From assembly GCA_037833965.1 (NCBI GenBank), contig AP031357.1, positions 9,568,001 through 9,632,000 on the forward strand: DNA of 64,000 nt, written 5' to 3'. The translations under genes and the position numbers were made by a program. This document shows, piece after piece, positions 20,586-62,126 of this stretch; within the stretch, counting starts at the first letter, position 1, and each line of letters opens with the position of its first letter. The notes under the pieces are model-generated. The model was not told the origin of the DNA. It saw nothing but the letters and a program-made list of their open reading frames with translations, and did not search any database. Source of the DNA: Marchantia polymorpha subsp. ruderalis (Eukaryota; Streptophyta; Marchantiopsida; Marchantiales; Marchantiaceae).

Positions 20586-21551
20586 CTATGATCCGGGGGT
20601 GAAGTTGGTGGCGTAGGCCCAGGCGTTGTTCACAGTCGGGTCAGCCAAGTGGTCGGACAAGTTCTCGATCGGGCCCTTGCCGGTGACAATAGCCTGAACG
20701 AAGAATCCGAACATGGAGAACATGGCAAGTCTTCCGTTCTTCAGCTCCTTCACCTTCAGCTCGGCGAAGGTGTCTGGGTCCTCAGCCAAGTTCAGGGGGT
20801 CGAATGAGCCTCCGGGGTAGATTGGGTCGACAACATCACCCAAGGGTCCTCCTGCCACTCTGTATCCCTCGATGGCTCCCATGAGCACGACCTGGCAGGC
20901 CCAGATGGCCAGAATGCTCTGCGCGTGGATGAGGCTCGAGTTGCCGAGGTAGTCCAAACCTCCCTCAGCGAAGATCTGGGATCCGGCCTTGAACCATACT
21001 GCCTCGCCGAACTTCACTCCGTTCTTCGACAGCAGCTCGGGGGTCACACATCCCAAAGCTCCCAACATGGCCCATCGGGAGTGGATCACCTCCAGCTCCC
21101 GGTTCTTGGCGAAGGTCTCGGGGTCAGCAGAGAGTCCGGCAGTGTCCCAACCGTAGTCACCGGGGAACTCACCGGTCAAGTACGATGGGGTGGCACCGGA
21201 GAATGGGCCCAAGTACTTGGGTCGGTCCTCACCGTACCTGCAGAAGTCACGACGGTCTCAGACTCAAACATGCGACTCGGGGATGTTGAACTTCGACGAG
21301 AAAATCGGGGCACCGCACGAAATTCCGCCGAAAATTAGCGAAAATGCAAAGTTCGCAATGGGCGTGATCGTTGCGCGCGGAATTCTCGGGCGTGGGAGTG
21401 AGAACGCTTACCAGATGCTCGAGGGGGCGCTGCCCTTGCGCATGACGACGCGCGCCTCTCCAACGTTAACCTTGCCTGCGAGCGCATTGCTGGAGGCTCC
21501 GAGGGCCTGGCCGGCCAAGCTGGTGGAAGCACATGCAGTGACAGCTGCCAT
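20586..21551 (-). CDS. LHCB: LHCB A: LHCII chlorophyll a/b-binding protein, no-Thr type
   Basis: A thylakoid antenna protein of photosystem II that binds chlorophylls a and b and forms trimers. Exon 1 is 21551-21412 (transit peptide). The intron is 174 nt. Exon 2 is 21237-20586. The total is 263 residues. The intron splits the Trp codon of the trimerisation motif WYGEDR. Helix B has [12 protein letters not shown], helix C has [14 protein letters not shown], and helix A has [15 protein letters not shown]. The predicted mature start is [10 protein letters not shown], lacking the phosphorylatable Thr3. It differs from B-D by [30 protein letters not shown] and a C-terminal GS. Several of these features are shared with LHCB I, so it looks like a mosaic. 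A TATA-like CTATATG lies about 95 bp upstream of the ATG. Confidence 0.97.
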
Positions 21552-21640
21552 TTTGCAAGGATGAGTTCGAGAGTCTCAATGCAGGAGCGGGCAATTCGGC
21601 TGAATGAATGTGTGACAGGATTTGGGTCGAGAAGTGGTCT

Positions 21641-21755
21641 ACATATAGAACGAGAGGGAAGCAAGGTCTACGCGCTTACTTGGCACACTAGGATGATCTC
21701 CCCGCCCTCATGAGATTGAAAGCGCCAATGGCATCGCTCGCGTGGATGATATCAT
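21641..21755 (-). promoter_or_regulatory. LHCB A promoter elements
   Basis: On minus, reading towards the gene: GATATC (21,753-21,748) preceded by CCCAT; then ATTGGCGC (21,729-21,722), an inverted CCAAT box; then CTATATG as TATA (about 21,649-21,643). GATA plus CCAAT upstream of TATA is the known light-responsive layout of plant Lhcb promoters. Related motifs precede LHCB C and D. Confidence 0.5.
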
Positions 21756-23154
21756 GGGACCACCAGATTACCCGTAACATGCTTGTACACTATATTTTTA
21801 TACTTCCTCGAGCATTTGACCCTGAGTTACGAGCCCCGTCATGATCAGATTCAAAATGTACTCCATGTCCGGAACATAGCTTTGACTCACGATAGGTTGC
21901 TCAGATTTCCTGCTCGAGCCCATCCAAACCAATGCCAGCGCTTTTCACAAATTTAGCAATAATGCTGTCGGTACTGTTCTCGTAAAACAGAACGTCGAGC
22001 ATGGTGGCGCCATGATTACGCTGGCCAATCGTAGTTCGTGTGTACGGAATGGTTGTAAGGACTCACTGGACGCACTACTGTACTATTCTGTGGCCGTAAT
22101 AGGCTCCTTGAGAATATGCTCGCAATGTGGTGGATGTGAGTGTAGGTCGACTTTCCCGACTACTACCGCTGTTCGCTGGAACTTGAGAGCGAAGGGAGTT
22201 TCTAATCGAATTCATGATTTACGTCGATACGTATTCACATGTTCAATTCTCTTCATTTAGCATGTCCGAGAACGTAAAAAGTTTCTTGTCATCTGAGAGA
22301 GAACATCATCATAGGTAGATCTGTCCTGGCAGAAAGAGGTGGATGAGCCGTTCAGAATATAAGCTAAGGATTTAAGAATGAGGATTTTCTATCATGATGG
22401 CTTCTTCAGGATTTGAACCATGATTTCAGTGTTGGTAGAAAAAGCAAACGTATGTGTTCACGAACTTTTTTGCACGGTAAATTCCCGAGAGTGTATTATT
22501 GAGAGTTGTATACTTTTCCTCTACACATGATAACAACACAAATCCATTAGCGAAGGTATATGTATTCTTTCTTTGACAAACTTTCCCCCAATGTGCTAAT
22601 TTTGATCATTTCATTTATCAGACAACGATGGTTCATGTTTACAATATTCTATTTTGAAGTGTCACAGTCAGTTCATTGTGATTTTCTGGCTTTTATTTTC
22701 ACTTTTTCCAACGAGGAAATAAGTAAAGTGCATATATCGATGTTTTCAAAGTAGTCTGCTATTAAATTTTCTTGTTTCCTAACTGTCCTCAAGTTTTCAA
22801 CAGTGAATAATAGTCAGAATTGTGTTTTATATTCGACGTCAGGCTCTGGTCGAGTTGAAGCCTCTCGAGATGAATAGTACTAAATCTGACAACTCAAAAT
22901 ATACACGTATGAAAGCCGGATTTCTGCATCTTGTAAATTGAAACTCTCACTCGCGGGGGGAACAGTCAGAACACTGCTCGACCATGGCTACAACGGATAT
23001 TCAAATCAGACTGCGCGACATCAAGATTGAGATGAAAGCTGAGTATCGTATGATATATAAATTCAACTTCGGTCACCTGTTCACAAGAGAATTTACACTG
23101 AAAACTAATTTACACCGTTCCTAATCTCCGTTACATAATCCCCAACAGCACAAT
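21756..23154. other. Intergenic, no gene seen
   Basis: Only short ORFs. The end near 23,154 includes the 3' flank of LHCB B. Confidence 0.45.
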
Positions 23155-24169
23155 CTAATTTCCGGGGGTGAAGTTGGTGGCGTAGGCCCAGGCGTTGTTC
23201 ACAGTCGGGTCAGCCAAGTGGTCGGACAAGTTCTCGATGGGTCCCTTTCCGGTAACGATGGCCTGGACGAAGAATCCGAACATGGAGAACATCGCAAGTC
23301 TTCCGTTCTTCAGCTCCTTCACCTTCAGCTCGGCGAAGGTGTCTGGGTCCTCAGCCAAGTTCAGGGGGTCAAATTGGCCTCCGGGGTAGATCGGGTCGCT
23401 CACTTCTCCCAAGGGTCCTCCTGCTACTCTGTATCCCTCGATGGCTCCCATGAGCACGACCTGGCAGGCCCAGATTGCCAGAATGCTCTGCGCGTGGACG
23501 AGGCCAGAGTTGCCGAGGTAGTCCAGACCTCCCTCTGAGAAGATCTGCGATCCGGCCTTGAACCATACTGCCTCGCCGAACTTCACTCCGTTCTTGGCCA
23601 GCAGCTCGGGGGTGACACATCCCAAAGCTCCCAACATGGCCCATCGGGCGTGGATCACCTCCAGCTCCCGGTTCTTGGCGAAGGTCTCGGGGTCGGCCGA
23701 GAGTCCGGCGGTGTCCCAACCGTAGTCACCGGGGAACTCACCGGTCAAATACGATGGGGTGGCACCGGAGAATGGGCCCAAGTACTTGGGTCGGTCCTCA
23801 CCGTACCTGCATCACAAACAATCCTGCACGATTAGCCACGGATCGAAGCTGACATGGATCGGATCGGCTGGAGCTTCAGAGTCAGGGACTCGCCCTTGTT
23901 CGCACAGAGCACTTTCGAGTTGAGAACTTTCAAATTTTCGAAACGTTCTACGTTAAAATTGAAATAGCGGACGGGGCGCGTCAAAGAGCGGGAGAGGCTT
24001 TCCATCGGCGCTGGGGAAGATTCTCTCACCAGATGCTGGAGGGCGCACTGCCCTTGCGCATGGTGACGCGCGCCTCTCCGACGTTCACCTTCTTCGCCAA
24101 TTCATTGCTGGAAGCTCCGAGCGCTTGGCCCGCGATGGAGCTCGATGCGCAGGCAGTCACGGTCGCCAT
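23155..24169 (-). CDS. LHCB: LHCB B: LHCII protein, no-Thr type
   Basis: Exon 1 is 24169-24030, the intron is 223 nt and exon 2 is 23806-23155, giving 263 residues. The transit peptide begins [14 protein letters not shown] and carries [18 protein letters not shown] before the predicted mature start [10 protein letters not shown]; the threonine at position 3 of the kinase-target paralogues is absent. The second-exon protein has [40 protein letters not shown] and C-terminal GN, and is identical at the amino-acid level to that of C and D. All three LHC membrane helices, the chlorophyll-ligand residues (Glu and His of ELEVIH, Glu, Asn and Arg of KELKNGR) and the WYGEDR trimer motif are present. 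No frameshift was seen. Confidence 0.97.
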
Positions 24170-24342
24170 CTCGACACAAGATTGAAGGAGGTTTCCTTGA
24201 TGTCTGAAGATCTGGAGGCTTTGATGTTCTCAAAGATCGAGCTGCCGATGTTGGAGACAGGTTCGAGCTTATGAAGCAACTGGGATTGGGACCTGGCGGG
24301 AGTGTCAAAGTAGAGGCTGCGGTAAGGTGGATTTACGAGTCT

Positions 24343-24396
24343 CACGTGGCAGCAGAGAAGAGGCACGGGTAACCCCAAGATATCGCAAGCACCAAT
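24343..24396 (-). promoter_or_regulatory. LHCB B promoter elements (CCAAT, GATATC, G-box)
   Basis: On minus the order is ATTGGTGC (24,396-24,389), GATATC (24,384-24,379) and CACGTG within GCCACGTGAG (24,348-24,343). The G-box lies about 175 bp upstream of the ATG. G-boxes are bound by bZIP, bHLH and HY5-type light regulators in plants. No clear TATA box was seen between here and the start codon. Confidence 0.5.
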
Positions 24397-24419
24397 AGAC
24401 AAATTAGGAATGTCTTCGG

Positions 24420-26211
24420 ATTAATCTAAAATTCACGAACCGATTTAAGACGAATAGTTGCAACTACTGGGTAACTAGGAGGTGACGAAATGTCTGCAAC
24501 AATAGGAAGAAGTCAAGTTCAGAAGTCTACAGGTGAGGAAATCCAGTCATCCAGTGGTGTTCGAGTCGTTTCTTAGTTTAGATTCTCTCTTGTCGTGTTT
24601 TGCGCTTCTGATCTGATCTAATAATTTCTTCGAATCAATGTATGGAATTTGGGTCGCGAATATCCTCTGGTTGCAGTAGTGGTGTTTTGATGGTCGCAGA
24701 AGATGACTGGAACACTTTCAGTCAATTTGCCTTCTCTACAACCATATGAATCACTTATGAATTCCTCCGTTACCAAGGAAAAAACGAAAAAGTAATAAGA
24801 AGACAGCCACTTGCCTGACACTACGCTCTGTAGTTGTGGTGGATGGGTTACCCCCTCTGCCACAAGTTAACTCTCCACTCAGCAAGGAAGAAAACGATGA
24901 CAAATAAACAGTGTACGGTAGCAGAAGTGTTCCATACCCTGCACGTTTGACAAGAAGAACTTTACTTCCATGTCAGGCTGGTTCCAGTGGTCATACTTGG
25001 CCGCTTTTCACACTTAAAAATGTAGCGTAACTAGTCTAGTAAATCTCACGGGAGGCAATTTGGTAACCATTTTCACCTCTTCACCAGAATTTCACGAGTA
25101 TAAAGCTCAAACCCACAGGAAAGATAAACGAGGTTGCTCTGTCCTTTCTGTCCAATTTGTGTTGCATTGTTGAACATGATGCGGATAGTGCATTAACTTT
25201 GGCACCGATGTTTTATTCGGAAAATTGTCCGATCGTTGTCTTTCTTGGGGACGGAGAAGAACAGTTCAAATTGTCAAGTTCCGTGGAAGAGAATTTTGAC
25301 AGCGTTGACTGTATTGTATTGCCCGATGCGTGGTCGAGAACTTACCTTCTCAGACGACCAGTGTTGAAGCCGTAACTCCGCTGTAAAACTGAACGCTACT
25401 AATTTCCCAATGCCTCCCAAGGAATCTTTTTTCTTACACAGTAGTCTGACAATTTCCTCCGTTCGAGTGAAGGACAAATTTGTTTCAATCCATATGTTCA
25501 CTTCACTTCTTTCTCCTCTGAAATCGTTCCCATTATGGAATTTTTTCATAATCGTCCTCACATTGTACCATCGGTGGTATAATGTCAGAACAGAAATTGT
25601 TCTACACAACGTTACAGGCGGTGGATTAAATTTGATGTTGCACATTTCATTTGATTTTTGGAAACCAGTTTTTGTCTGAGAAATTTTTTTCTTTCAACAT
25701 CTAGTTAATTTTGCAGACTACGAACTACATTGGTTACATCGCGAATGGTACACTACTAGTGAACGATTCTTCATTTTACTCGCATTGCTGCAGAGAAGAA
25801 TGATGTCTAAGGATTTGTTAAGTGCATGTCAACCGATCATTGATTTTTCTGTTCAAGTAGCAGTTCTGTGCTTCGGTCTGCACACCTTCTACTTTCGTTC
25901 CGTTTCAAGGACGACGCATGAAGTAGATGTTCGAGTATACTTCGACAAAGTGTTTCTGATGAGCATTTCCAGATTTTTGGAACAGTCAGATAATCTGAGT
26001 TTGAATGTAACATTTTTATTCATTACATCGACTTCAGACATGTAATATACAAGCTTCTCGAGCCATGAGCGAATATCCGGAACCTGAAACTATGATACAA
26101 TTGCTCGCACGAGGTAGCTCACAAGTGAGACAACCTGTACACAGCAGAAGCACTCCTCCAACGGGAAGGTGACAAGCTTCACTAACCCCTTGCTTCATAA
26201 TAACAAACACT
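24420..26211. other. Intergenic, no gene seen
   Basis: Scattered ORFs of 70-125 codons on both strands (for example 25,274-25,645 minus) without recognisable domains. The end near 26,211 holds the 3' flank of LHCB C. Confidence 0.45.
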
Positions 26212-27290
26212 CTAGTTTCCGGGAGTGAAGTTCGTGGCGTACGCCCAAGCATTGTTCACGGTTGGGTCAGCCAAGTGATCGGACAAGTTCTCGATCGGGC
26301 CCTTGCCGGTGACAATAGCCTGGACGAAGAATCCGAACATGGAGAACATCGCCAGCCTTCCGTTCTTCAGCTCCTTCACCTTCAGCTCGGCGAAGGTGTC
26401 TGGGTCCTCAGCCAAGTTCAGGGGGTCGAATTGACCTCCGGGGTAGATCGGGTCGCTCACCTCTCCCAGGGGTCCTCCTGCTACTCTGTATCCCTCGATG
26501 GCTCCCATGAGCACGACCTGGCAGGCCCAGATGGCCAGAATGCTCTGGGCGTGGACAAGGCCAGAATTGCCGAGGTAGTCCAGGCCTCCCTCGGAGAAGA
26601 TCTGCGATCCGGCCTTGAACCACACCGCCTCGCCGAACTTGACGCCGTTCTTGGCCAGCAGCTCGGGGGTCACACATCCCAAAGCTCCCAACATGGCCCA
26701 TCGAGCGTGGATCACCTCCAATTCACGGTTCTTGGCGAAGGTCTCGGGATCGGCAGAGAGTCCGGCGGTGTCCCAACCGTAGTCACCGGGGAATTCACCG
26801 GTCAAGTAGCTTGGGGTGGCACCGGAGAATGGGCCCAAGTACTTGGGTCGGTCCTCACCATACCTTCAAGAAGGAATCACGCAGAATTAGACTGATTTCG
26901 AAGTGTCGAGACGATGACCATCAGATAACAAATGATGAGGGTGATTGAGCTAGGGACGATGCGCATTCCTTTGAATATTTCAACAGTCACGGTAGCAATC
27001 ATCATTAAGCTGCAGAAGATTTTCTGGACAAAGGACATTGTATGACAAAGCGGTTTACTTCGAATATTTTATATACATCTTCACTAACTGTAAACTTGAA
27101 AAGGAGATCACAGCCAAGGCAAATAAATTTGTCGAGGGTTGAGTAGCCACCAGATGCTGGATGGAGCAGATCCTTTGCGCATAACAACGCGGGCTTCACC
27201 GACGTTGACTTTCTTGGCGAGCTCATTGCTGGAGGCTCCGAGAGCCTGTCCAGCCAAGAAGGTAGATGCGCAAGCTGTTGCTGTGGCCAT
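26212..27290 (-). CDS. LHCB: LHCB C: LHCII protein, no-Thr type
   Basis: Exon 1 is 27290-27151, the intron is 287 nt (donor GTGGCT) and exon 2 is 26863-26212, giving 263 residues. The transit peptide starts [18 protein letters not shown]; the predicted mature start is [10 protein letters not shown]. The second-exon protein equals that of B and D residue for residue, though many synonymous bases differ, which points to purifying selection or protein-level homogenisation. The segment reading GATCGGGCCCTTGCCGGTGA on plus is shared with A but not with D-I, and matches the broken LHCB fragment near 35.8 kb. TTTATATAC, a clear TATA box, lies about 91-100 bp before the ATG. Confidence 0.97.
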
Positions 27291-27380
27291 CCTGATAGTC
27301 GTAAGAACACTTCGCAAACTGACTTCTGTGCAGCAACAGTTGGAACGATGTAGTGTTGAGTCTGTGTGTGCAGAACCAAA

Positions 27381-27459
27381 GTATATAAAGGTGGAGCTGC
27401 AGCTGATGTGGCGGGGGAAGGATGAGAAGAGCGAAAGGAACAAGATCAAAAGCACCAAT
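27381..27459 (-). promoter_or_regulatory. LHCB C promoter elements
   Basis: On minus: ATTGGTGC (27,459-27,452), followed by TTTTGATCTTG as in LHCB D, and TTTATATAC (27,390-27,381). A CCCATGATAGTAC segment just upstream (about 27,490-27,475) parallels CCCATGATATC of LHCB A. Confidence 0.5.
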
Positions 27460-29752: not shown

Positions 29753-29793
29753 CATAAAACGATAGAGTTAGAGGACAAATCTATCGTTTTATG
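29753..29793. repeat. 13-bp perfect inverted repeat
   Basis: CATAAAACGATAG at 29,753-29,765 pairs with CTATCGTTTTATG at 29,781-29,793. Confidence 0.75.
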
Positions 29794-32129: not shown

Positions 32130-35100
32130 TTATCAAAAAAGTGAAAGACCCTTCATCCAGATAGACCAGCACGCACGACAGTCACAACACCGAGATTATG
32201 TGGTTCACCTAATACTTAACCTAACCTAAGCTAACATAACCACAGTTAACTTCCTAACCATGGTTACCACTAACTGTAGTTAATCCAAGATAGAGTTAAC
32301 CTAACAAACTTCCCCTTGACTCAAGTCTTGGAGAGGTAACTAATGTAATCTACATGTATCTCTGCGAGAAGTTCTAGAAAGTAAAGCTAAATCACGTTTT
32401 TCCTCTATAGTCGAGAGTTGACTAGAACCAAGCCATAGCCGGCAAAATACTGGATGGAGAATACATGTACAACTGTTACTAGACTAACTATCCCTATGCA
32501 AAATTTGCAACTTTGCACAATGCTTGGAAAAAATCTCCAAAGGAATTACTTTGGTCAATGCATCGGCAAGGTTGAGCTTACCATCAATTTTGATAAGCTT
32601 AAGTGCACTATCAGACACTACTTGTCTGATATAATGATATCGAATATCAATGTGCTTTACCCTACCATCCATCACATTGTTTGATGCTAGATGAAGTGCG
32701 CTTTGGCTGTCACAATAAAGACTCACATCACTGTGTGGCAGCCCCATCTAAGTGGCCAACTTGTTTGACCAAATTGACTCCTTCGCTACTTCTGCTGCTG
32801 CAACATATTCAACTTCTGTGGACGACTGAGAAATGCATTTTTGAAGCGTAGATCTCCAACTTATGCATCCACTAGCAAGAATGAAAACATACCCAGTTGT
32901 TGATCTCCGCATATCCAAATCTCTTCCATAATCAGCATCAAACAATAATCCTGTATCAAGTGAAGCCTTGATATACCTCATAATCCACTTTATAGCTTCC
33001 CAATGCTCTCGTTTAGGATTTGACATGTACCTACTCACTTTCCCAACTACATATGCTATATCAGGTCTAGTGCGCAGCATAAGATACATAATACTGCCAA
33101 CTGCACTTTCATAAGGAATAGAAGACATCAATCTTTTAGCAGGTGCATCAATTGGACAGAAAGCTGCCGAAAGTTTAAAGTGTGCAGCTAATGGAGTACT
33201 TACAGCTTTAGCATATGACATGTTAAACCTAGCAAGTACTTTTTTGCATACCGTGTCTGTGTCAACCAAAGTTTGCTTGATGACTTGTACCTATTAATCT
33301 CCATGCCTAGTATACGCTTACCAGGACCTAAATCTTTCATATTAAACTCAGAACTGAGCTGGACTTTGAGTTTAATAACCTCAGACCTATCCTTAGCGGC
33401 AATAAGCATATCATCTACATACAGCACGAGTTATATCAAGCCAAAACTTGTGTTGCTAACACGCTTTATGTACACACAAGGGTCATATGCACTTCATATG
33501 AAATCTTGCGTATGCATGAACTCATCAAAACGCTTGTTTCATTGTCGGGGACTTTGCTTAAGTCCATACAAGGATTTAAGCAACCGACAAACCAAACGTT
33601 ACTCTCCTATCTTCAAAAAACCCTCCAGTTGTCTCATGTAAATCACATCGTCCAAAGCTCCATGTAAAAAGGTTGTAACAACATCCATTTGGTCGAGGAA
33701 TAAATCAAATAATGTGACAAGTGCACACAACAAGCATATAGTTGAAAACTTAGCAACTGGTGAAAAAAACTAAGTCTAGTCGATGCCCTTCCGTTGTTCA
33801 AAGCCCTTGGCCACCAATCTTGCCTTGAAGATTTTCTCAACTACATCAGTGGATCCATCCTTCATTGTGTAGACCTATTTGCAATCTATGGCTTGTTTTC
33901 CAGTGGGCAACTCCACGAGTTCCCGAGTCTAGTTGTCATGAAGTGATTTCATCTCCTTTCGCATTGCTACATCCAAATCAAGCTTCTTGGGGACTGATCG
34001 AGATTCAGCATAAGAGGATGGACTTCCATCCTCCGTGAACAACGCTTCTCCTAAGTCATCAACAAGTAGGTACTCGTCCCTGACAGCATGTTCTGTTGGA
34101 AACCAGGTACCACACCTTTCGGGCACACGACGAACACGCGTTGGTCTTGCAGTTGAAGACTCTGCTTGATCACTGTGTGCTGGTTCAGATGGTGGCCCAC
34201 CAGCAATGTGTTGCTCCTCATGGACCTCTTCAAGAGCAAAATCTTGCTCTTTTGCCTCGCCCGTCATTTGTGGAGCACCTCCTTGTGGCCCGTCATGAGA
34301 AATTTCATGATAAATATCCCCCTCAATGGTGATTGAGGAAGATAAATTACCTTCGTTAGTAGCAAGATTAACAATCTCTCCCTCTTTCGATGATCTGGAC
34401 TCATTGAAAGAAACATCTCTACTAACAGTAAGTTTACCGCTTACAGGATACCAAAGTCGTTATACTTTGACATCACGCTGATAACCAAGAAAAATACACT
34501 TGGTAGTCTTGGGATGAGCTTAGTCCTCAATTCCCTGGGAACATAGGTAAGCATCACATCCAAACACTCCAATATAAGAGTAATGAGCATTCCATTTATG
34601 CCACATTTCAAACGGAGTTTTGTAACTTATTGCACTACAATGAGACAAGTTTATCAAATAAGCCGCAGTATTGATGGCTTCAGCCCAAAAAATCTGTGGT
34701 AAACCAGCATGGCTCAACATACTCCGTGATCTATCCAACAGCGTTCGATTGAGTCTCCCTAACACGTTGTTTTGTTGTGGAGTATAAACATTGGTGAAGT
34801 GGCGGGTAACCCCCTCATTTTCACAGAACGCTCCAAACTCCTGAGACACGTACTCCCCACCGTTGTCCGATCGCAAGAACTTCACCTTCTCTCATCACTG
34901 AGTCTAAACTTGGGCTTTTCACTTCTTAAAAGTGACAAAGACTTCAGACTTGTGTGGAAGAAAGTAGATCCACACATACCTTGAGTAATCATCAATAAAC
35001 GTAACATAATACTCCTTCCCAGAATGTGAGGCAACAAGGGAAGGGCCCCACACATCAGAATGAACATACTCAAGAACTGTCTTGAAACTATGAACGTTAG

Positions 35101-35580: not shown

Positions 35581-35793
35581 AGTTGCCCAAGCGAGCTATC
35601 AATTTGAGGAGAAGCTTCTTCTATGAATTTTCTGATCTTCCCTTGACATCATTCGATCCACGATGAAAACATCTTGTTTCCGGATGATCTTGTGCGACGA
35701 AGATTTCATCGGCCTCACAGGATGGAAAGACGACAATCTCGAAGCTATATCATTCCACAAATTGACGATTCTAGATTACAAGCCATTATGACA

Positions 35794-35850
35794 CAAGCTA
35801 TTGTCGCCGGCAAGGGCCCGATCTAAAACTTGTCTGACCACTTGGCTGAC
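35794..35850 (+). pseudogene. LHCB: LHCB exon 2 fragment, broken
   Basis: Fifty-seven bases match the sense strand of LHCB exon 2 over the [19 protein letters not shown] segment, with five differences from LHCB A. These include a GAG to TAA stop and an ACC to GCC change. The block GGCAAGGGCCCGATC is shared with LHCB A and C only, so the donor was of that type. It is directly followed by the outer inverted-repeat arm (TTGGCTAATTATCCCT), with about 10-14 bp shared by both. There is no flanking LHC sequence, so it is a captured or relocated scrap, not a decayed full copy. Confidence 0.85.
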
Positions 35851-39754: not shown

Positions 39755-40925
39755 ATGGCAGCCGTCACTGCTTGTGCATCCACCAGCTTGGCTGGACAGG
39801 CTCTTGGAGCCTCCAGCAATGCACTCGCCAGCAGGGTGAATGTTGGAGAGTCCCGCGTTGTTATGGCCAAGGGATCTGCTTCTAACAGTATCTGGTGAGT
39901 TGGTTTTCAGTATTTGTAGGTTTAAGGTCGTGTCCGTGTTTGCTCCGTCTAAGAAAAAGTCACAGAAGAGAAGGAATCCTCCGATCAGTCATCCGTCGCC
40001 TTAATTCGAGAAAAAATGTCTGAGCGGGCCTTAATCTGTTCTCACTTATAAAAAAATTCAGGACTACTGAATTATAGTAAGTAACTACATGATGTCTTAG
40101 GAACACCGCTGTATGAAATGTTGCAGTCGCTACTTCCAACATGTCGAAACGATGAGTTCGGTGGTGGGCTAGTGGGATTGTGGTTGCTGCCAGTGGGCAT
40201 TATGAGCTGAGAAGTGAGCTTGAGGGGATTTGGTTGTGGAGCTCTGTAACTGACGAGGCTTCGTAATGCACAGGTACGGTGAGGACCGACCCAAGTACTT
40301 GGGCCCATTCTCCGGCGCTACCCCATCTTACTTGACCGGTGAGTTCCCCGGTGACTACGGCTGGGACACCGCTGGACTCTCTGCCGACCCCGAGACCTTC
40401 GCCAAGAACCGTGAATTGGAAGTGATCCACGCCCGATGGGCCATGTTGGGAGCTTTGGGATGTGTCACCCCCGAGCTGCTGGCCAAGAACGGCGTCAAGT
40501 TCGGCGAGGCAGTGTGGTTCAAGGCCGGATCGCAGATTTTCTCAGAGGGAGGTCTGGACTACCTCGGCAACTCTGGCCTCGTCCACGCGCAGAGCATTCT
40601 GGCAATCTGGGCCTGCCAGGTCGTGCTCATGGGAGCCATCGAGGGATACAGAGTAGCAGGAGGACCCTTGGGAGAAGTGAGCGACCCGATCTACCCCGGA
40701 GGCCAATTCGACCCCCTGAACTTGGCTGAGGACCCAGACACCTTCGCTGAGCTGAAGGTGAAGGAGCTGAAGAACGGAAGGCTGGCCATGTTCTCCATGT
40801 TCGGATTCTTCGTCCAGGCCATCGTTACCGGAAAGGGACCCATCGAGAACTTGTCCGACCACTTGGCTGACCCGACTGTGAACAACGCCTGGGCCTACGC
40901 CACCAACTTCACCCCCGGAAACTAG
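39755..40925 (+). CDS. LHCB: LHCB D: LHCII protein, no-Thr type, only + strand copy
   Basis: Exon 1 is 39755-39894, the intron is 379 nt (the longest of the nine) and exon 2 is 40274-40925, giving 263 residues. The transit peptide starts [18 protein letters not shown]. The presequence end differs from all paralogues: GESRVVM then [10 protein letters not shown], so the predicted mature start lacks both the basic Arg1 and Thr3. Exon 2 encodes a protein identical to those of B and C. The gene is divergent from C (12 kb away, with transposon DNA between) and convergent with E. All helices and the WYGEDR motif are intact. Confidence 0.97.
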
Positions 40926-42338: not shown

Positions 42339-43335
42339 TTAGTTTCCGGGGGTGAAGTTGGTGGCGTAGGCCCAGGCGTTGTTGGCAACGGGGTCAGCCA
42401 AGTGGTCGGACAAGTTCTCGATGGGTCCCTTTCCGGTGACGATGGCCTGGACGAAGAATCCGAACATGGAGAACATCGCCAACCTTCCGTTCTTCAGCTC
42501 CTTCACCTTCAGCTCGGCGAAGGTGTCTGGGTCCTCGGCCAAGTTCAGGGGGTCGAATTGACCTCCGGGGTAGATCGGGTCGCTCACCTCTCCCAGGGGT
42601 CCTCCTGCCACTCTGTATCCCTCGATGGCTCCCATGAGCACGACCTGGCAGGCCCAGATGGCCAAAATGCTCTGGGCGTGAATGAGGCTCGAGTTGCCGA
42701 GGTAGTCCAAACCTCCCTCAGCGAAGATCTGAGATCCGGCCTTGAACCACACTGCCTCTCCGAAGGAGACACCGTTCTTGCTCAAAAGCTCGGGGAAGAC
42801 GCATCCCAAAGCTCCCAACATGGCCCATCGCGCGTGGATCACTTCCAATTCACGGTTCTTGGCGAAGGTCTCGGGGTCAGCAGAGAGTCCAGCGGTGTCC
42901 CAGCCGTAGTCACCGGGGAATTCACCGGTCAAGTAGCTTGGCGTGGCACCGGAGAATGGGCCCAAGTACTTGGGTCGGTCCTCGCCATACCTGCGAGACG
43001 TAAAATGAGCACGATCAGATCTACGAATCAGAGAATGCTTTCTGAACAAGAATGGTGTAAATTGGCAAATCTACATCAGATTAGAGCTATGCAATGCATG
43101 CTTATCAAGTGACTATGTCGACATTTACAACTGCATTTGATTGTGATCATACTGGACTGTTGAAATTGAGCTTCAGGCGGTGTCCTCACCAGATGCTGGT
43201 GGGGGTGCTCTTGACAGTCTTGCGCATAACAACTCGAGCTTCACCAACGTTGACCTTGGCAGCAAGAGCATTGCTGGAGGCTCCGATAGCCTGACCAGCG
43301 AGGACGGTCGAAGCACAGGCGGTGGCGGAGGCCAT
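42339..43335 (-). CDS. LHCB: LHCB E: LHCII protein, Thr3 type
   Basis: Exon 1 is 43335-43190, the intron is 199 nt and exon 2 is 42990-42339, giving 265 residues, two more than A-D. The transit peptide starts [18 protein letters not shown]. The predicted mature start is Arg38 in [12 protein letters not shown], with Thr40 at mature position 3, the site that STN7-type kinases phosphorylate in seed-plant LHCB1/2. The trimer motif WYGEDR is at 49-54, helix B ligands Glu98 and His101, helix C about 153-175, helix A about 208-228, with a C-terminal amphipathic segment at 248-261. Exon 2 has [40 protein letters not shown] and GN. GTATATAGC lies about 84 bp before the ATG. Confidence 0.97.
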
Positions 43336-43425: not shown

Positions 43426-43452
43426 GAGCACTGAGAGGATGCAGCCTGGATT

Positions 43453-44736: not shown

Positions 44737-45713
44737 CTAGTTTCCGGGGGTGAAGTTGGTGGCGTAAGCCCAGGCGTTGTTGGCAACGGGGTCAGCCAAG
44801 TGGTCGGACAAGTTCTCGATGGGTCCCTTTCCGGTGACGATGGCCTGGACGAAGAATCCGAACATGGAGAACATCGCCAACCTTCCGTTCTTCAGCTCCT
44901 TCACCTTCAGCTCGGCGAAGGTGTCTGGGTCCTCAGCCAAGTTCAGGGGGTCGAATGAGCCTCCGGGGTAGATTGGGTCGACAACATCACCCAAGGGTCC
45001 TCCTGCCACTCTGTATCCCTCGATGGCTCCCATGAGCACGACCTGGCAGGCCCAGATGGCCAGAATGCTCTGAGCGTGGATGAGGCTCGAGTTGCCGAGG
45101 TAGTCCAAACCTCCCTCAGCGAAGATTTGAGATCCGGCCTTGAACCACACTGCCTCTCCGAAGGAGACACCGTTCTTGCTCAAAAGCTCGGGGAAGACGC
45201 ATCCCAAAGCTCCCAACATGGCCCATCGGGCGTGGATCACCTCCAATTCACGGTTCTTGGCGAAGGTCTCTGGGTCAGCAGAGAGTCCAGCGGTGTCCCA
45301 GCCGTAGTCACCGGGGAATTCACCGGTCAAGTAGCTTGGGGTGGCGCCGGAGAATGGGCCCAAGTACTTGGGTCGGTCCTCACCGTACCTGTAATCGTTC
45401 AGAAAAAATGAATCATATGCATACTGTAGGAAATAGAAGACTAAAGCACAACGGACCCCGAAAAAGAACGACATTTCGTCGAAGACAGCAAACTCGGTCT
45501 GAGCTCCTTCCGACCTCGAGCGAGCAGTTCAGACAGTCACAAAACAGTACGTGCAGAGCGAACATACCAGATGCTGGTGGGAGTGCTCTTCACGGTCTTG
45601 CGCATCACCACGCGAGCCTCACCAACGTTGACCTTGGCAGCGAGGGCATTGCTGGAGGCTCCGAGAGCCTGACCAGCGAAGGTGGAGGAGGCACAGGCGG
45701 TAGCGGCGGCCAT
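44737..45713 (-). CDS. LHCB: LHCB F: LHCII protein, Thr3 type
   Basis: Exon 1 is 45713-45568, the intron is 179 nt and exon 2 is 45388-44737, giving 265 residues. The transit peptide starts [18 protein letters not shown] and the predicted mature start is [12 protein letters not shown] with the kinase-target threonine. Exon 2 carries [18 protein letters not shown] and NSSLI as in E, but [12 protein letters not shown] as in A and I, a block switch within one exon. GTATATAG lies about 88 bp upstream of the ATG. Sequence further upstream (to about 46,010) is clearly related to the upstream region of LHCB G. Confidence 0.97.
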
Positions 45714-54543: not shown

Positions 54544-55525
54544 CTAGTTTCCGGGGGTGAAGTTGGTGGCGTAGGCCCAGGCGTTGTTGGCAACGGGGTC
54601 AGCCAAGTGGTCGGACAAGTTCTCGATGGGTCCCTTTCCGGTGACGATGGCCTGGACGAAGAATCCGAACATGGAGAACATCGCAAGTCTTCCGTTCTTC
54701 AGCTCCTTCACCTTCAGCTCGGCGAAGGTGTCTGGGTCCTCAGCCAAGTTCAGGGGGTCGAATTGACCTCCGGGGTAGATCGGGTCGCTCACCTCTCCCA
54801 GGGGTCCTCCTGCCACTCTGTATCCCTCGATGGCTCCCATGAGCACGACCTGGCAGGCCCAGATGGCCAGAATGCTCTGGGCGTGGACGAGGCTCGAGTT
54901 GCCGAGGTAGTCCAAACCTCCCTCAGCGAAGATCTGAGATCCGGCCTTGAACCACACAGCCTCTCCGAAGGAGACACCGTTCTTGCTCAAAAGCTCGGGG
55001 AAGACGCATCCCAAAGCTCCCAACATGGCCCATCGCGCGTGGATTACCTCCAATTCACGGTTCTTGGCGAAGGTCTCGGGGTCGGCAGAGAGTCCAGCGG
55101 TGTCCCAGCCGTAGTCACCGGGGAACTCACCGGTCAAGTACGATGGGGTGGCACCGGAGAATGGGCCCAAGTACTTGGGTCGGTCCTCGCCGTACCTGTT
55201 ACAGTGAGAGAGCGAGTTCAGCGAAATGATGGTCGGACATCAACAGCATTGCATTCCCTGTGTATTGTTGGGCAGTTCCGAGGTAAATGCAGAATTTCGA
55301 AACTCAGTGTGTGTATACTGCAATTACGGTTCAATCATACCAAAATTGCCAGAGCTGCACAGAAGACTTCGATGCTTACCAGATGCTGGTGGGAGTGCTC
55401 TTCACGGTCTTGCGCATCACCACGCGGGCCTCGCCGACGTTAACCTTGGCGGCGAGAGCATTGCTGGAAGCTCCAAGAGCTTGACCAGCGAAGGTGGAGG
55501 AGGCACAGACAGTAGCGGACGCCAT
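54544..55525 (-). CDS. LHCB: LHCB G: LHCII protein, Thr3 type
   Basis: Exon 1 is 55525-55380, the intron is 184 nt and exon 2 is 55195-54544, giving 265 residues. The transit peptide starts [18 protein letters not shown] and the predicted mature start is [12 protein letters not shown]. Exon 2 carries [40 protein letters not shown] and GN. Its 5' flank is related to that of F and its 3' flank to that of H (CACTAATTCATCTACTCAAA), so the three belong to one duplication series. The TATA is weak (TATTAAG, about 88 bp upstream). The long plus-strand frame across the gene is a codon-bias shadow. Confidence 0.97.
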
Positions 55526-55857
55526 TGCGCTGGTCGTGCGAGGAGTTGAGAGACTCGGAATTGATGGAGGATGGAGTGAGCTTCTGCAGTAGCCGGGAGA
55601 ACACGAAGGCTTAATAGCAGCACTTCGGCACGAGAATCGAACGGGCCGATTTCTGCTTCAGGCTAAAATCCTGGAAGAGAAGGAGGACCTCAGACTGAGC
55701 CCACAATCTTGGCACCGCGATCTAGTGGGACGACAAATAATCATATCTAGAGATCCACAAGTGGCAGATTCGGATTTCATTTCCGGAAGCAGTAGAATGT
55801 GGTCGTTGAGTTGCTACGTCATATATACAAACTCGGTTGTCGCGTTGGAAGTCGTCG

Positions 55858-55920
55858 GCCTGCCATGGGGTCACGCGGTCACCTCGGTGACCGCGGTGAC
55901 CGCGTGACCCCGAGGCAGGC
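55858..55920. repeat. GC-rich long hairpin upstream of LHCB G
   Basis: GCCTGCC, a 2-nt mismatch, then GGGGTCACGCGGTCACC pairs with GGTGACCGCGTGACCCC, a 2-nt mismatch, then GGCAGGC. The loop is small and holds a further GGTGACC copy. The arms of about 26 nt contain 24 pairs. It lies about 330 bp upstream of the LHCB G start codon. Confidence 0.85.
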
Positions 55921-56021
55921 TAAGGTCGCCGGCAGGCTAGGTAAGACGACCGAGGCTCGGTCCTCTTACGTTGCGCGGTTATCATGAACTGCGCAGTTTG
56001 TTACCTCTTGCTTCATTAGAT

Positions 56022-56077
56022 GTCGCCGAAGGTGAGGGGGCTTGAACAAATGTTCAAGCCTCTTCACCTTCGGCGAC
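56022..56077. repeat. Second long hairpin upstream of LHCB G
   Basis: GTCGCCGAAGGTGA at the left pairs with TCACCTTCGGCGAC at the right, and CTTGAACA with TGTTCAAG, around a 2-nt loop. The arms are about 27 nt with only two or three mismatches. It lies 100 bp from the GC-rich hairpin. Confidence 0.85.
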
Positions 56078-56099
56078 CTTCACTAAGACTCCAAATTTT

Positions 56100-58075
56100 A
56101 AGTTACCAGGAAATCTAGCCTGGTAACCGAATCTTGTAACCTGGTAACAGAATCACGAATCTTGTCACTGGAAGATAACTTAATCACGTCGGTCGTCAGT
56201 CTCGACTGCTCTGTTCGGCAACTGCTCCTCTCCGTAAGGTCCACAATCAAGTAATACTGCAAAAACAACGGGAATACCACATTAATACCACCCAAATAGG
56301 TAGTAAGAAATTAGTCAACTATATATACTGTAGTATACATAGAATATTCAGACTTCCAGTTTGAACTATCTCCAAACATAGTTCACTCAAAATATTATAC
56401 TATATTTCGCTATTTAATATGGATAATGTATTTTACCGGAAGGGAAAAAAAATTTAAAATAAAAAAATGCTTATTAATAGGAAATATATATATATATATA
56501 TATATGTCAGTTGATAAATATATAGCATACGATATGCTAAAAAGATTAATATTCAAGGATACCAAGTATAATACATTCTCATAAATTGATTCGTAAGTCT
56601 ATAAGATATGCAAATTAGATTTGTCATGAATGACATATAGAATAATACATTTCATAAAAAAATATCAAGATCCTCTAGCATGCATCCATTCCGAGAGAAG
56701 AGGATGATCCAGTTTGGTGTTTGGAAGAAATGGTAGTTTATATTGTAAACTAACTTTGGGATTACAAAGCTGGTAAAATACAGTATAACTAGATATCGAT
56801 AGAATTGTGTTGCAACCCATTGGTCTATCAAAGTAGAGATAGGACTCCAATTCCAGTTGTTGAATGACGAAGAAAATTAGTGGTTTGCTAAGAAGGGTAG
56901 GTAGATTCAAGTCATTAATTATCACTTTTATATCAATCGTATCTTGTATTCATATATTTTTATGGACATTATGCTAATCCTAGACTTGAAGTTCAGTTTA
57001 TTTCATATATGTTAAATGAAAATCGGACTTTCTAGACAGAAGTCTCACTCTCTATAAAAAAAAATGAAGCTAACTTCTGAGTATAACTTAAATTTCTGTA
57101 GCATGCTTGCTTACAATGAAGTTAATAATGAGAGGCATAAAACAAATCGGTGCATATAAATAATACAGTAAACAATATATCGAAGTGATTTCAATTATCT
57201 TTTGATTGAAATTTCGATACTTAAGGTACACAAGTACTTTACTTTTGCGACTATATTGGTATATATTGTTTTCTGTAGTTTTTACTCAAATTATCGAATT
57301 ATGTGTACGTTCACTTGAATAATAGTATTCTCCCTTTTTAAAAAAACATTTTATTCTTTCCAAGCCATATACCACTAATTCTTTTCATATTGTTCAGTAT
57401 TAACGTGATTTTTGCGGAACAGTATTTGACTTTTTGACATGCTCTACAGTTAATATGTTTTGAACTGTTCGTATTAATCGTAATATTTTAATATACTCAA
57501 CGTGGGCGCAAAGTTTTACATATGTTTCGTCTCTTCTTACAATCAAAGGTCCTGGATTGTAAACTTCACTGACATATGTCTTTACTCAGTATAATTGCAT
57601 GCATATTCTGTCTCATTAGTTCCGGCGAAGTAAATGGTAAATGGTAAACAGACAACTTAATAATTCTGCGTTCCATTTGCACGTTACTCCTTTTGTTGCA
57701 TGCGCTTGGCGAAACAGATACTAAATCGGAGTCTTAGGAGCTAATTAGAAGCTTCCGCTAGTGTCCACAACAAGACACTCTCTCATTTCCAGCCATATCT
57801 TGCAACTCCGCAAAGAGAGAGACTCAATTTCGCAAGCGAATGACATCACACTCAAAGAATAGAGAGAATTGCAGAAAAAGTCGCATTATATTAAGTCAGT
57901 CAAATTGGCTTCCACCCACAGGAGGAGAAAGCGCGGCTCAGCTACTCACGACGGTGCAATGCACACTAATTCATCTACTCAAAGAATGTCCGCTGTGGAG
58001 AGCCAGAAGATATTGTACAATTCATGGGCGGAGAACCAAAATTTACTACGAGACTCTTTAAAACATGCAACATCT
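56100..58075. other. Intergenic, no gene seen
   Basis: Repeated CTGGTAAC motifs at 56,105-56,150, an (AT)n tract at about 56,487-56,506, then AT-rich sequence. 57,940-58,010 matches 54,420-54,480 as the shared 3' flank of G and H. Confidence 0.5.
56487..56506. repeat. AT dinucleotide microsatellite
   Basis: Uninterrupted TA/AT alternation of about 20 bp. Confidence 0.8.
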
Positions 58076-59064
58076 CTAGTTTCCGGGGGTGAAGTTGGTG
58101 GCGTAGGCCCAGGCGTTGTTCACAGCCGGGTCAGCCAAGTGGTCCGACAAGTTCTCGATGGGTCCCTTTCCGGTGACGATGGCCTGGACGAAGAATCCGA
58201 ACATGGAAAACATGGCAAGTCTTCCGTTCTTCAGCTCCTTCACCTTCAGCTCGGCGAAGGTGTCTGGGTCCTCAGCCAAGTTCAGGGGGTCGAATTGACC
58301 TCCGGGGTAGATCGGGTCGCTCACCTCTCCCAGGGGTCCTCCTGCCACTCTGTATCCCTCGATGGCTCCCATGAGCACGACCTGGCAGGCCCAGATGGCC
58401 AGAATGCTCTGGGCGTGGACGAGGCTCGAGTTGCCGAGGTAGTCCAAACCTCCCTCAGCGAAGATCTGAGATCCGGCCTTGAACCACACTGCCTCTCCGA
58501 AGGAGACACCGTTCTTGCTCAAAAGCTCGGGGAAGACGCATCCCAAAGCTCCCAACATGGCCCATCGCGCGTGGATTACCTCCAATTCACGGTTCTTGGC
58601 GAAGGTCTCGGGGTCGGCAGAGAGTCCAGCGGTGTCCCAGCCGTAGTCACCGGGGAACTCACCGGTCAAGTACGATGGGGTGGCACCGGAGAATGGGCCC
58701 AAGTACTTCGGTCGGTCCTCACCGTACCTGTTACAGACGAAGCGAAATTTAGCAAGAAGCAACATACATTTCGAGAAGACAATTGCGGCCTAACACTTTA
58801 TAGAGGAAGATGAAACCTCAGACGGAGATACGTATTTCCACTAATGTAGTTCAAGTGTGAATTGCAATTACTTTGACATGCAATTGCTGTGAAAGTAGTC
58901 GAAGTTTGGTACACGTACCAGATGCTGGTTGGGGTGCTCTTCACGGTCTTGCGCATGACCACGCGGGCTTGTCCCACATTCACCTTCTTCGCGAGCTCAT
59001 TGCTGGTGGCTCCGAGGGCCACTCCAGCAAGGCTCGTAGATGCGCAGGCGGTGACGGAAGCCAT
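58076..59064 (-). CDS. LHCB: LHCB H: LHCII protein, Thr3 type
   Basis: Exon 1 is 59064-58919, the intron is 191 nt and exon 2 is 58727-58076, giving 265 residues. The transit peptide is the most divergent of the Thr3 group: [18 protein letters not shown], then [19 protein letters not shown], with the NELAKK block otherwise seen only in B and C. The predicted mature start is [12 protein letters not shown]. Exon 2 is like G ([17 protein letters not shown]) but ends PAVNN instead of PVANN. No clear TATA box was found within 120 bp of the ATG. Confidence 0.97.
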
Positions 59065-59129
59065 GTTTTCCTGTATCTGATGAGTGAGTACAGAAGAAAC
59101 GAGGCTGATGGCTACAGAAAGTGTGAGTC

Positions 59130-59864
59130 TGCAAGTGAACACTAGGCTGTGTTATGTGTTTGAAGGCGGCAGGAAGTATGCCCTGTGGACCCAGGGAGCT
59201 GGGATTGCACCTCTGATGAAGATGATCATGTCGGTTCTGGCAATCAGAAGAACGAATAGTATTGCAGGCCTTGCTGACGGGGCCACATGTGGTGGATTTC
59301 TAATCATGCATGAACTTGAGCCATCGGACCTCCGACATGGTTGTGCTCAGCTTGCACTAGACTCCAAACTTCTCGTAAAGTCCCAACAGCCAGCTGGACA
59401 GAGAATAGGATTGATCCAGTAGGAAAACTGCGCTGACGAAAGCTGCACTAAAATCCACTGGCAAGTTGCGACTGATGGATGCATCGAGGATTTACTGCGG
59501 AGAGTAACGCTGCGGTATCTTGAATGTTGCATGTGGGGAAGTCCATTGGCACCGATTTTGATGCCCTGTTTGTCCAGTAATTGTTATTGTAAAGCACAAT
59601 AGATCCGGTCGAGATAACATGGAAGTCAGAAACAGTTTATCTTATCGTGAAACGGATCAGTGGGACCCAGGTGCTCTCTGACGTTCTATTGTCACGGGAG
59701 AACCATGAATTCGCGTGGCTTGCGCTTCTCGACAGAACTTACAAGCAATGGGAATCTTCAAAATGATCTTCGTGGACTTTTGTGGATTTTCCACGAAGAA
59801 GTTATTCGTTTGGTCGATTTTCTTTGAGAGTTAATTAGTTTGAGAGATTGAAGACATTATAATT
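59130..59864. other. 5' flank of LHCB H; no other gene seen
   Basis: It should contain the LHCB H promoter, but no strong TATA, GATATC or G-box was spotted. The ORF at 59,084-59,422 (+) has no recognisable product. Confidence 0.4.
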
Positions 59865-60395
59865 AAGTAACCACTTAACGTTTTCTTCCATTTCCAATTA
59901 GTGAATTTCGTCTCACTTTAGGAATTTATGGTTGAAGGAAACGAGACTTTTCTTTATGGTGGAAGGCATTAACAAGTGACAATTTTACGTTTTCTGCTAT
60001 GTCCAACTAGTACATTTCGTCTCACTTTAGGAAGTTTTAGTTGAAGGAAACGAGACGTTTCATGATGGTGAAAGGCATTGACAAGTAACAATTTTACGTT
60101 TTCTGTTATGTCCAATTAGTGATTTTCGTCTCACTTTAACACTTTATAATTGAAGGAAACGAGACGTTTCACGATGGTGGAAGGCACTATCAAGTAACCA
60201 TTTCACGTTTTCTGTTATGTCGGAGTAGTGATTTTCGTCACGCTTTAGAATGTTATAAATGAAGGAAATTAAACGTTTCATGATGGTATAAGGCATTAAC
60301 GTGAAACAATTTCATTTTCTCTTTTGTACAAGAGTGATTTACATTTCACTTTCAGTATTGTTGTTGAGGAAGACATGTAATGAGATGGTACGCAT
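59865..60395. repeat. 109-bp tandem repeat, about 4.5 copies
   Basis: The anchor GAAGGAA occurs at 59,934, 60,043, 60,152 and 60,261, an exact 109-bp period. Each unit holds CGTTTTCT, TTCGTC-CACTTTA and GAAGGAAACGAGACGTTTCA with variants. The last units are more diverged. No frame is conserved across it. Confidence 0.9.
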
Positions 60396-61096
60396 TGTTT
60401 TCCCGTTGCTAGTGGTTGAAATTAATGTTGTAATCCTTTCACATTTTGCCTAAGTAGTTTTGATCATTGTTTAGTTTTTTTTCATTTGTTTGTTTTTTGT
60501 TTTTTGTTGTCCACAGTTTTCATTTGTTTGTTTTTTGATCATTTATTTCTCCTTTTTATCTTTTTCTATATTTGTGAGAGCTATTACAGGGCCATATTTT
60601 CTGATGTTTTTCATGTTTGAGAAATATTTTTCTCCGTTTCGTCATTTTTCTCGTAACCACATGCACAGTGTTGCATGGACTTTCGTTTGATTGAACCTCA
60701 ACATGATTTGTATCTCAGAACACGTTTGATACACTCTTTATCACCTCAGTGCGTTTTCGTTTATGAAATTCTCCCACCCTGTATACATCAAGTGATCTTT
60801 CCCTCCGTTTCCTGTTTTCAGATCTACTATTTACATCGTGGAAAATACCAGGATACTTCAGAACACATGATACTCAAGGGTTTACACCACTTAACCTTGC
60901 AAATGATGAAAAACATCCTGAAGGATGACGTTTTTATTCCGATCAAGCACCAGGACATTTCCCAAGCTCAAAATTGGGTGGAACGCTAAGAAAATTACAG
61001 TCTACTCCTTTACAAGTACCGGGGCGAGACCACTATACCACTATACATGTCCAGAACTGGGGATCGTGAATTCCTTTCACGAAGACCCGTCGTAGT
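60396..61096. other. No supported gene
   Basis: T-rich sequence. The ORF at 60,675-60,989 (+, 104 codons) has some protein-like segments but no recognisable domain. The end near 61,096 is the 3' flank of LHCB I. Confidence 0.4.
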
Positions 61097-62126
61097 CTAT
61101 GATCCGGGGGTGAAGTTGGTGGCGTAAGCCCACGCGTTGTTGGCAACGGGGTCAGCCAAGTGGTCGGACAAGTTCTCGATGGGTCCCTTTCCGGTAACGA
61201 TGGCCTGGACGAAGAATCCGAACATGGAGAACATGGCGAGTCTTCCGTTCTTCAGCTCCTTCACCTTCAGCTCGGCGAAGGTGTCTGGGTCCTCAGCCAA
61301 GTTCAGGGGGTCGAATGAGCCTCCGGGGTAGATTGGGTCGACAACGTCACCCAAGGGTCCTCCTGCCACTCTGTATCCCTCGATGGCTCCCATGAGCACG
61401 ACCTGGCAAGCCCAGATGGCCAGAATGCTCTGAGCGTGGATGAGGCTCGAGTTGCCGAGGTAGTCCAAACCTCCCTCGGCGAAGATCTGAGATCCAGCCT
61501 TGAACCACACAGCCTCTCCGAAGGTGACTCCGTTCTTGCTCAAAAGCTCGGGGAAGACGCATCCCAAAGCTCCCAACATAGCCCATCGGGAGTGGATCAC
61601 CTCCAATTCACGGTTCTTAGCGAAGGTCTCTGGGTCAGCAGAGAGTCCAGCAGTGTCCCAACCGTAGTCCCCGGGGAACTCACCGGTCAAGTAGCTTGGG
61701 GTGGCGCCGGAGAATGGGCCCAAGTACTTGGGTCGGTCCTCACCGTACCTGCATTTCATCGAACAGTGAGTAATACTTCCCAGCGGAAAGAAAGGGACTC
61801 GTAGAAATACGAGACAGCATCATTCTCTCGCCCTCTCAACAGTGATCAACAGAAATCGAAATTTAAAACTCTCGAGCCACAAGAGAAAACTGTCACTGAC
61901 AAGAGTTCTAGAGCGCGACGGACACAATCCCTCACGCTTTCCAGAAAAAATGGACCACAGGAATCAGGGCGAGGACATACCAGATGCTGGTGGGGGTGCT
62001 CTTCACGGTCTTACGCATGACGACGCGGGCTTCGCCGACGTTCACCTTGGCGGCGAGGGCGTTGCTGGAGGCTCCGAGAGCCTGTCCAGCGAGGGAGGTG
62101 GAAGCGCAAGCGGTGACGGCGGCCAT
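61097..62126 (-). CDS. LHCB: LHCB I: LHCII protein, Thr3 type
   Basis: Exon 1 is 62126-61981, the intron is 232 nt and exon 2 is 61748-61097, giving 265 residues. The transit peptide starts [18 protein letters not shown], close to those of A and D, but the predicted mature start is [12 protein letters not shown]. Exon 2 has [20 protein letters not shown] (unique Thr), [26 protein letters not shown] and C-terminal GS. HSRW and the GS terminus are shared only with A, at the other end of the cluster. GATATAGAA serves as TATA about 88 bp upstream. Confidence 0.97.

Follow-up and report, generated by a model that had tools for sequence, protein, structure and literature searches.

Nine genes for the major light-harvesting complex II (LHCII), designated A to I, were identified in a 64,000-nt stretch of the genome of the liverwort Marchantia polymorpha subsp. 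ruderalis (contig AP031357.1, positions 9,568,001 to 9,632,000; hereafter, the window), and these fall into two classes that differ at the predicted mature N-terminus, or head, of the encoded protein. Genes E–I encode a threonine at position 3 (Thr3), as part of the motif recognized by the kinase STN7, whereas genes A–D do not. We consider it probable that A–D supply Thr-less, non-phosphorylatable LHCII partners and that E–I supply STN7 substrates, with docking at photosystem I (PSI) more probably provided by a further gene, L016, located outside the window.

Two Classes of LHCII Heads in One Cluster

Exon-by-exon rebuilding of the nine genes yielded two exons each, separated by a single intron that in all nine splits the Trp codon (TG before the intron, G after it) of the IW-YGED stretch. 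Donor GT, acceptor AG, and a coding sequence free of internal stops were present in 9/9 genes. Exon 1 comprises 140 nt in A–D and 146 nt in E–I, confirming the two-codon length change described in a first-pass annotation of this DNA, the limits of which were likewise correct (20586 is the end of gene A and 62126 the start codon of gene I). Gene A matched the Chloroa_b-bind domain (PF00504, E 2.7e-50), and the spliced protein of gene F was identical over 265/265 residues to an M. polymorpha subsp. ruderalis database entry (P0041). With this domain and an intact, spliceable coding sequence, A–I were assigned to the major LHCII proteins (LHCB1/2/LHCBM). The possibility that A–D are pseudogenes was ruled out, since all nine genes are intact and the replacement rate is low.

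The mature start, following Met, was assumed by homology and numbered according to Thr3 of Arabidopsis, and is thus a prediction for Marchantia. The Met-Arg point in A–I aligns with the Met-Arg that precedes RRT in Arabidopsis LHCB2 and in PDB chain 8htu_U, which we take to be Physcomitrium LHCBM2. From this point, the head begins RKGSAPSS in A, B, and C and AKGSASNS in D, neither of which contains Thr; in D, Arg1 is missing as well and one basic residue is kept. All five of E–I begin RKTVK, and a degenerate search of the window for R-K-T-V-K returned exactly five sites, those of E–I, against a chance expectation of 0.02. The two head classes recognized in the first-pass annotation therefore stand. 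The head sequences that it listed were right as far as they went but stopped short of Ile-Trp; counted to the Trp, the heads are 10, 12, or 13 residues long among the 15 LHCB1/2-type genes modeled in this genome. The STN7 motif has been described as basic-basic-Thr-X-basic (PMC12852261). This motif is found at the predicted mature N-terminus of 5/5 E–I proteins (RKTVK) and of 0/4 A–D proteins (RKGSA, AKGSA). Because the A–D heads hold no Thr, Thr phosphorylation is impossible there.

Gene A, on which an LHCB3 identity was tested, scored 364 bits with 7oui_2 (named protein 3 and presumably LHCB3) versus 444–470 bits with most LHCB1/LHCB2 chains, the best scores in the PDB being 470 (LHCB2) and 460 (LHCB1); gene E scored 368 bits with protein 3 versus 488 (LHCB2) and 460 (LHCB1). 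On this test of gene A, A–D were rejected as LHCB3, despite sharing with it the lack of a phosphorylatable N-terminal Thr (PMC12852261). The contrast drawn in the first-pass annotation, in which seed-plant LHCB1/2 carry the Thr and LHCB3 does not, holds for LHCB3 but is too simple, since Arabidopsis Lhcb1.4 also lacks it (PMC10463614). The E–I heads resemble those of LHCB2 (RRTVKSTPQSIW in Arabidopsis P0082) and of moss LHCBM2 (RRTVKSTSDSIW in 8htu_U); however, E–I have RKT rather than RRT, their bodies fall among those of other Marchantia LHCBM, outside the LHCB2 clade, and they were not assigned to LHCB2.

LHCII Genes Elsewhere in the Genome

Searching the 241-Mb genome (nine contigs, with the window at C8:9568001-9632000) returned at least 45 chlorophyll-binding matches, including all nine window genes. 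Gene models cover the best 17 of these matches, comprising the nine window genes and eight from 20 further regions, the other 12 of which (L017–L028) fall outside the classification. Fifteen of the modeled genes are of the LHCB1/2 type, with Thr3 in 11/15 and without it in 4/15 (A–D). The six outside the window all have Thr3; five (L010–L014) are on the same contig as the window and L016 is on contig C2. Their heads are RKTGSKAASSSIW (L010), RKTSKSASSSIW (L011), RKTSSKSSSSIW (L012 and L013), RKTSKAAAPASIW (L014), and RRTKTSTPESIW (L016). The full STN7 motif is present in E–I, L011, and L014, whereas the basic residue is located three positions after Thr in L010, L012, and L013 and one position after it in L016.

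In place of an RKT head, the remaining two modeled genes, L009 (C3:14584500-14588500) and L015 (C8:12242200-12245600), have a long N-terminus that ends with DLTLW and DLSLW, respectively. An LHCB3-like identity is not favored by scores with the best LHCB1/LHCB2 chain versus protein 3 (411 vs 368 bits for L009; 382 vs 354 for L015); they are described here simply as two divergent LHCII genes. Two other regions, L022 (C8:5544900-5547900) and L026 (C2:28593500-28596600), contain LHCII bodies like those of B, C, and D that are frame-broken and have no recognized exon 1, and these look like pseudogene copies.

Origin and Age of the Thr-less Class

B, C, and D share one and the same 217-residue body, which differs from those of the Thr-bearing genes L010 and L011, located 1.0–1.7 Mb away, at 1/217 residues (position 202, T/A), but from those of E–I at 6–13. 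The heads of these nearest Thr-bearing relatives are 13 and 12 residues long. A tree of exon-2 DNA likewise placed B, C, and D with L010 and L011 (82/99, open fork). The body of gene A is 4 residues from that of I and 9 from those of B, C, and D. The first-pass annotation had proposed that the head difference arose within one tandem family, which in that form is not borne out, given the closeness of the B, C, and D bodies to L010 and L011 rather than to E–I and the presence of both heads in M. paleacea (below). The two-codon difference between A–D and E–I therefore probably does not reflect a single mutation step within the array, judging from the sequences compared. In approximately unbiased (AU) tests, A–D as one clade had p-AU values of 0.134 (exon-2 DNA) and 0.209 (transit-peptide DNA), and B–D as a clade had a p-AU of 0.074 (exon-2 DNA). 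The mosaic body similarities suggest gene conversion.

Heads like those of E–I were also identified in Arabidopsis P0082, in 8htu_U, and, as a 12-residue head, in P0131, which from its gene name we take to be from the alga Spirogloea. The E–I head thus looks ancestral. Two proteins of the alga Closterium (P0031 and P0055) have the LHCII head RKTAKAASSS, in which Thr3 is kept.

Both classes were detected in M. paleacea. The Thr-less head of P0035 (Mapa_014193) is identical to that of A–C, whereas P0123 (Mapa_014195) and P0044 have the Thr-bearing heads RKTVKTTPTSIW and RKTGSKAASSSIW. The locus tags of P0035 and P0123 are two apart and both are listed on a contig 1,379,221 long, and the two genes are very likely on one contig. 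The presence of both heads in M. paleacea indicates that the two classes are older than its split from M. polymorpha.

At least nine bases distinguish A, B, and C across the nine head codons that precede the Trp, yet all three encode the same residues there. Only 31 of 200,000 neutral simulations matched this conservation (29, 43, and 75 of 200,000 at transition biases of 1, 2, and 4); the same test on the E–I heads, with 5 differences, gave 500 of 200,000. The head of gene D has diverged from that of A–C. For exon 2, dividing the replacement proportion by the silent proportion gave about 0.07 within A–D, 0.12 within E–I, and 0.13 between them. Collectively, the Thr-less class looks old and selected.

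Thr-less LHCII in Other Plants

Thr-less LHCII has been described before in moss and in angiosperms, and A–D add Marchantia cases. The N-terminus of Physcomitrium LHCBM5/6/7 is shorter and has no Thr (PMC9434285), and one or both Thr sites are missing in Pteris vittata, Sphagnum fallax, and Zostera marina (PMC10463614). A–C resemble LHCBM5/6/7 in their short, Ser-containing N-terminus, in which no Thr follows the basic pair, D having one basic residue only; unlike A–D, these are moss genes, and the comparison is with their published description. Arabidopsis Lhcb1.4 is similarly without the STN7 Thr while having Thr-bearing siblings, and it is reported to be enriched in mobile trimers (PMC10463614), although it is a seed-plant LHCB1, likewise compared by published description. 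No paper on Thr-less LHCII in Marchantia was found among titles and the openings of abstracts, which is weak evidence of absence.

A survey of 136 protein heads (12 without a readable head and some, including P0013, P0014, P0026, and P0114, set at the wrong Met, so that totals are not frequencies) revealed further examples. At position 3, Ala, Gly, or Phe occurs in named angiosperm entries from Solanum (RKAVAK), Capsicum, Eucalyptus (RKAVRK), Ipomoea (RKGAAK), and Momordica. The leafy liverwort Calypogeia fissa (P0048) has the Thr-less head KKGVSESIW, with a basic-Lys-Gly start as in A–C, whereas Sphagnum has Ser3 (RGSKAKAVSGSIW), Adiantum has Thr at position 2 (KTSKGSSSSIW), and Ceratopteris also is without Thr3.

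Mapping Thr3 onto a 39-row tree of bodies (P0123 and P0131 being too short for it, and included in a 47-row tree) required 8 changes, 4 of them forced by starred branches, and stricter labelings gave 9 and 7. A single origin of Thr3-less heads (14/39 rows) among the sampled non-seed plants was rejected (p-AU 6e-15). It was rejected as well when P0049 and P0072, which have Thr at position 2, were labeled as Thr (p-AU 1.7e-5) and when these two were omitted along with P0059 and P0069, which have Ser at position 3 (p-AU 0.0013); in all three tests, the trait itself served to define the group being tested.

A Candidate LHCB2-Lineage Gene

L016 (C2:31058300-31061800) is the sole RRT-headed gene among the 17 modeled. 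In the 47-row tree, it branched with seed-plant LHCB2, the filmy fern protein P0071 (head RRTKKMSEDSIW), and P0083 with 94/94 support, a bootstrap that was not fully settled. Forcing L016 with the other Marchantia rows gave a p-AU of 0.00024, and with liverwort rows 0.0036, for groups picked after the tree had been seen. Among PDB chains named LHCB1 or LHCB2, L016 scored best with LHCB2 (466 bits) versus 414 bits with an Lhcb1 chain. At the only three strictly diagnostic columns identified, L016 has the LHCB2 letter at 122 and 137 but not 136, while P0071 and P0083 have it at 136 and 137 but not 122. L016 thus combines an RRT head with a body in the LHCB2 clade, the two features used here to recognize LHCB2. 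LHCB1 and LHCB2 have been described as indistinguishable in Physcomitrella (PMC2323573, PMC9434285), and one of these papers places their split only in seed plants. The LHCB2 position of L016 goes against this published view and so merits fuller test.

Proposed Roles and Alternative Explanations

The first-pass annotation had linked the Thr of LHCB1 and LHCB2 alike to state transitions. In Arabidopsis, this holds for LHCB2, the Thr of which is required for PSI-LHCI-LHCII and underlies about 60% of the change in fluorescence (PMC10463614), but not for LHCB1, in which it is dispensable: PSI-LHCII is lost in Lhcb2 T40V plants, whereas Lhcb1 T38V is without effect and state transitions are normal (PMC12852261, PMC10463614). 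The role of LHCB1 phosphorylation has been called a conundrum (PMC10463614). The moss phospho-Thr LHCBM proteins that are bound to PSI have RR before the Thr (PMC9434285). LHCII of lower plants has been detected with anti-phosphothreonine antibodies, Marchantia being covered by citation only (PMC6306036).

According to the reading that we prefer, A–D would encode ordinary major LHCII (LHCBM/LHCB1-type) with a short, Ser-containing mature N-terminus without Thr3. Their products would join LHCII trimers, evade Thr phosphorylation of the STN7 type, and serve as permanently non-phosphorylated partners akin to Arabidopsis Lhcb1.4 or moss LHCBM5/6/7. E–I would retain the older head and act as STN7 substrates, becoming LHCB1-like phosphorylated subunits, while the PSI-docking signal would come from the LHCB2-lineage L016 (RRT) on another contig. 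Because the LHCB2 Thr is required for the PSI complex in Arabidopsis and L016 is the only RRT gene modeled, L016 is favored as the docking subunit and is a likelier one than the cluster genes.

Several observations weigh against this reading. Conservation of the A–C head shows importance but leaves the reason for it unexplained, and two of its nine base differences represent one Ser codon switch (AGC/TCT) in which each change taken singly is non-silent. Thr3-less heads recur in many plants and may be tolerated only. Ser4, Ser7, and Ser8 of the A–C head could themselves be phosphorylated. The weak donor of gene C and the further degraded head of gene D indicate that A–D are perhaps unequally active. 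L016 sits on a long branch, and its AU tests share the after-the-fact choice of groups noted above. Finally, phospho-Ser LHCBM13 of moss is also present in PSI-LHCI-LHCII (PMC9434285), and by analogy the RRT head may not be the sole docking form.

It is unlikely that the nine genes serve LHCII quantity only and that the head difference is inconsequential. Such a dosage role is in keeping with recurrent loss of Thr3 (the 7–9 changes on the 39-row tree and rejection of one clade under three labelings) and with the normal state transitions of Lhcb1 T38V plants, but is hard to square with nine base differences that leave the A/B/C head without a residue change or with the identical head in M. paleacea. 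We consider it very unlikely that, as the first-pass annotation proposed, the expression ratio of A–D to E–I controls how much of the LHCII can be phosphorylated and hence how large state transitions are. The cluster does contain two head classes, both of which are also present in M. paleacea; however, six more Thr3 genes are located outside the window, and loss of the LHCB1 Thr in Arabidopsis is without effect on state transitions (PMC10463614). Tuning is also not favored by simple promoter motifs: eight motifs, counted by eye in 500 bp upstream of each of the 15 genes, showed no clear class pattern, with ATTGG in 4/4 A–D versus 2/5 E–I and RGATTY in 1/4 versus 4/5, from too few genes to judge.

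Least probable, in our estimation, is regulation of the A–D heads through phosphorylation of Ser4, Ser7, or Ser8 by STN7 or another kinase. Physcomitrium LHCBM3/9/10, 11/12, and 13 are Ser-phosphorylated in the STN7 site, and many sites of the Ser-rich region are used in this moss (PMC9434285), but phosphorylation of that region is reported to be STN7-independent (PMC9434285), LHCB Ser phosphorylation in Arabidopsis is reported to be independent of both STN7 and light, and Arg1 is gone in gene D. A Physcomitrella N-terminome paper contained 0 occurrences of LHC, the accessible part of a Marchantia chloroplast proteome preprint included LHCA but no LHCB isoform, and literature searches on Marchantia thylakoid phosphoproteomics and on LHCB expression found nothing usable.

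Gene Coordinates and Other Features of the Window

Positions of the exons are compiled in Table 1. The interval from gene C to gene D contains two open reading frames (ORFs) on the minus strand at 32748-34885, one with a weak integrase match (PF00665) under the cut-off and the other resembling a copia-type polymerase by reading, with no match in Pfam; this looks like a retroelement inside the cluster, close to the inverted gene D. A degenerate chlorophyll-binding fragment at 35752-35850 has 50% identity to residues 209-246 of gene A. Outside the cluster, an ORF at 7184-8221 has a SNARE-region match (PF12352) and an NPF-repeat match under the cut-off.

Table 1. Exons of the nine LHCII genes, in window positions.
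Gene	Feature	Position	Strand	Basis
A	Exon 2 (LHCII body)	20586..21237	-	Exon rebuild
A	Exon 1, without Thr3	21412..21551	-	Exon rebuild, head alignment
B	Exon 2	23155..23806	-	Exon rebuild
B	Exon 1, without Thr3	24030..24169	-	Exon rebuild, head alignment
C	Exon 2	26212..26863	-	Exon rebuild
C	Exon 1, without Thr3; donor GTGGCT fits consensus at 6/9	27151..27290	-	Exon rebuild
D	Exon 1, without Arg1 and Thr3	39755..39894	+	Exon rebuild
D	Exon 2 (inverted copy)	40274..40925	+	Exon rebuild
E	Exon 2	42339..42990	-	Exon rebuild
E	Exon 1, Thr3 present	43190..43335	-	Degenerate search, exon rebuild
F	Exon 2	44737..45388	-	Exon rebuild
F	Exon 1, Thr3 present; whole protein identical to P0041	45568..45713	-	Exon rebuild, protein comparison
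G	Exon 2	54544..55195	-	Exon rebuild
G	Exon 1, Thr3 present	55380..55525	-	Exon rebuild
H	Exon 2	58076..58727	-	Exon rebuild
H	Exon 1, Thr3 present	58919..59064	-	Exon rebuild
I	Exon 2	61097..61748	-	Exon rebuild
I	Exon 1, Thr3 present	61981..62126	-	Exon rebuild

Implications for LHCII in Liverworts

Genes B, C, and D versus L010 and L011 amount to a natural head-swap, with bodies 1/217 residues apart that carry heads without and with Thr3, in a plant for which laboratory gene editing is common. State-transition function could be tested with a single gene in a liverwort if L016 is a true LHCB2. A fuller division of labor, in which L016 docks at PSI, the RKT subunits are phosphorylated in trimers bound to photosystem II (PSII), A–D remain Thr-less, and the head alone sets the role, is a tentative proposal that we regard as possible but rather doubtful. 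If true, it would mean that the LHCB2 lineage predates the split of bryophytes and vascular plants, earlier than the papers cited here place it.

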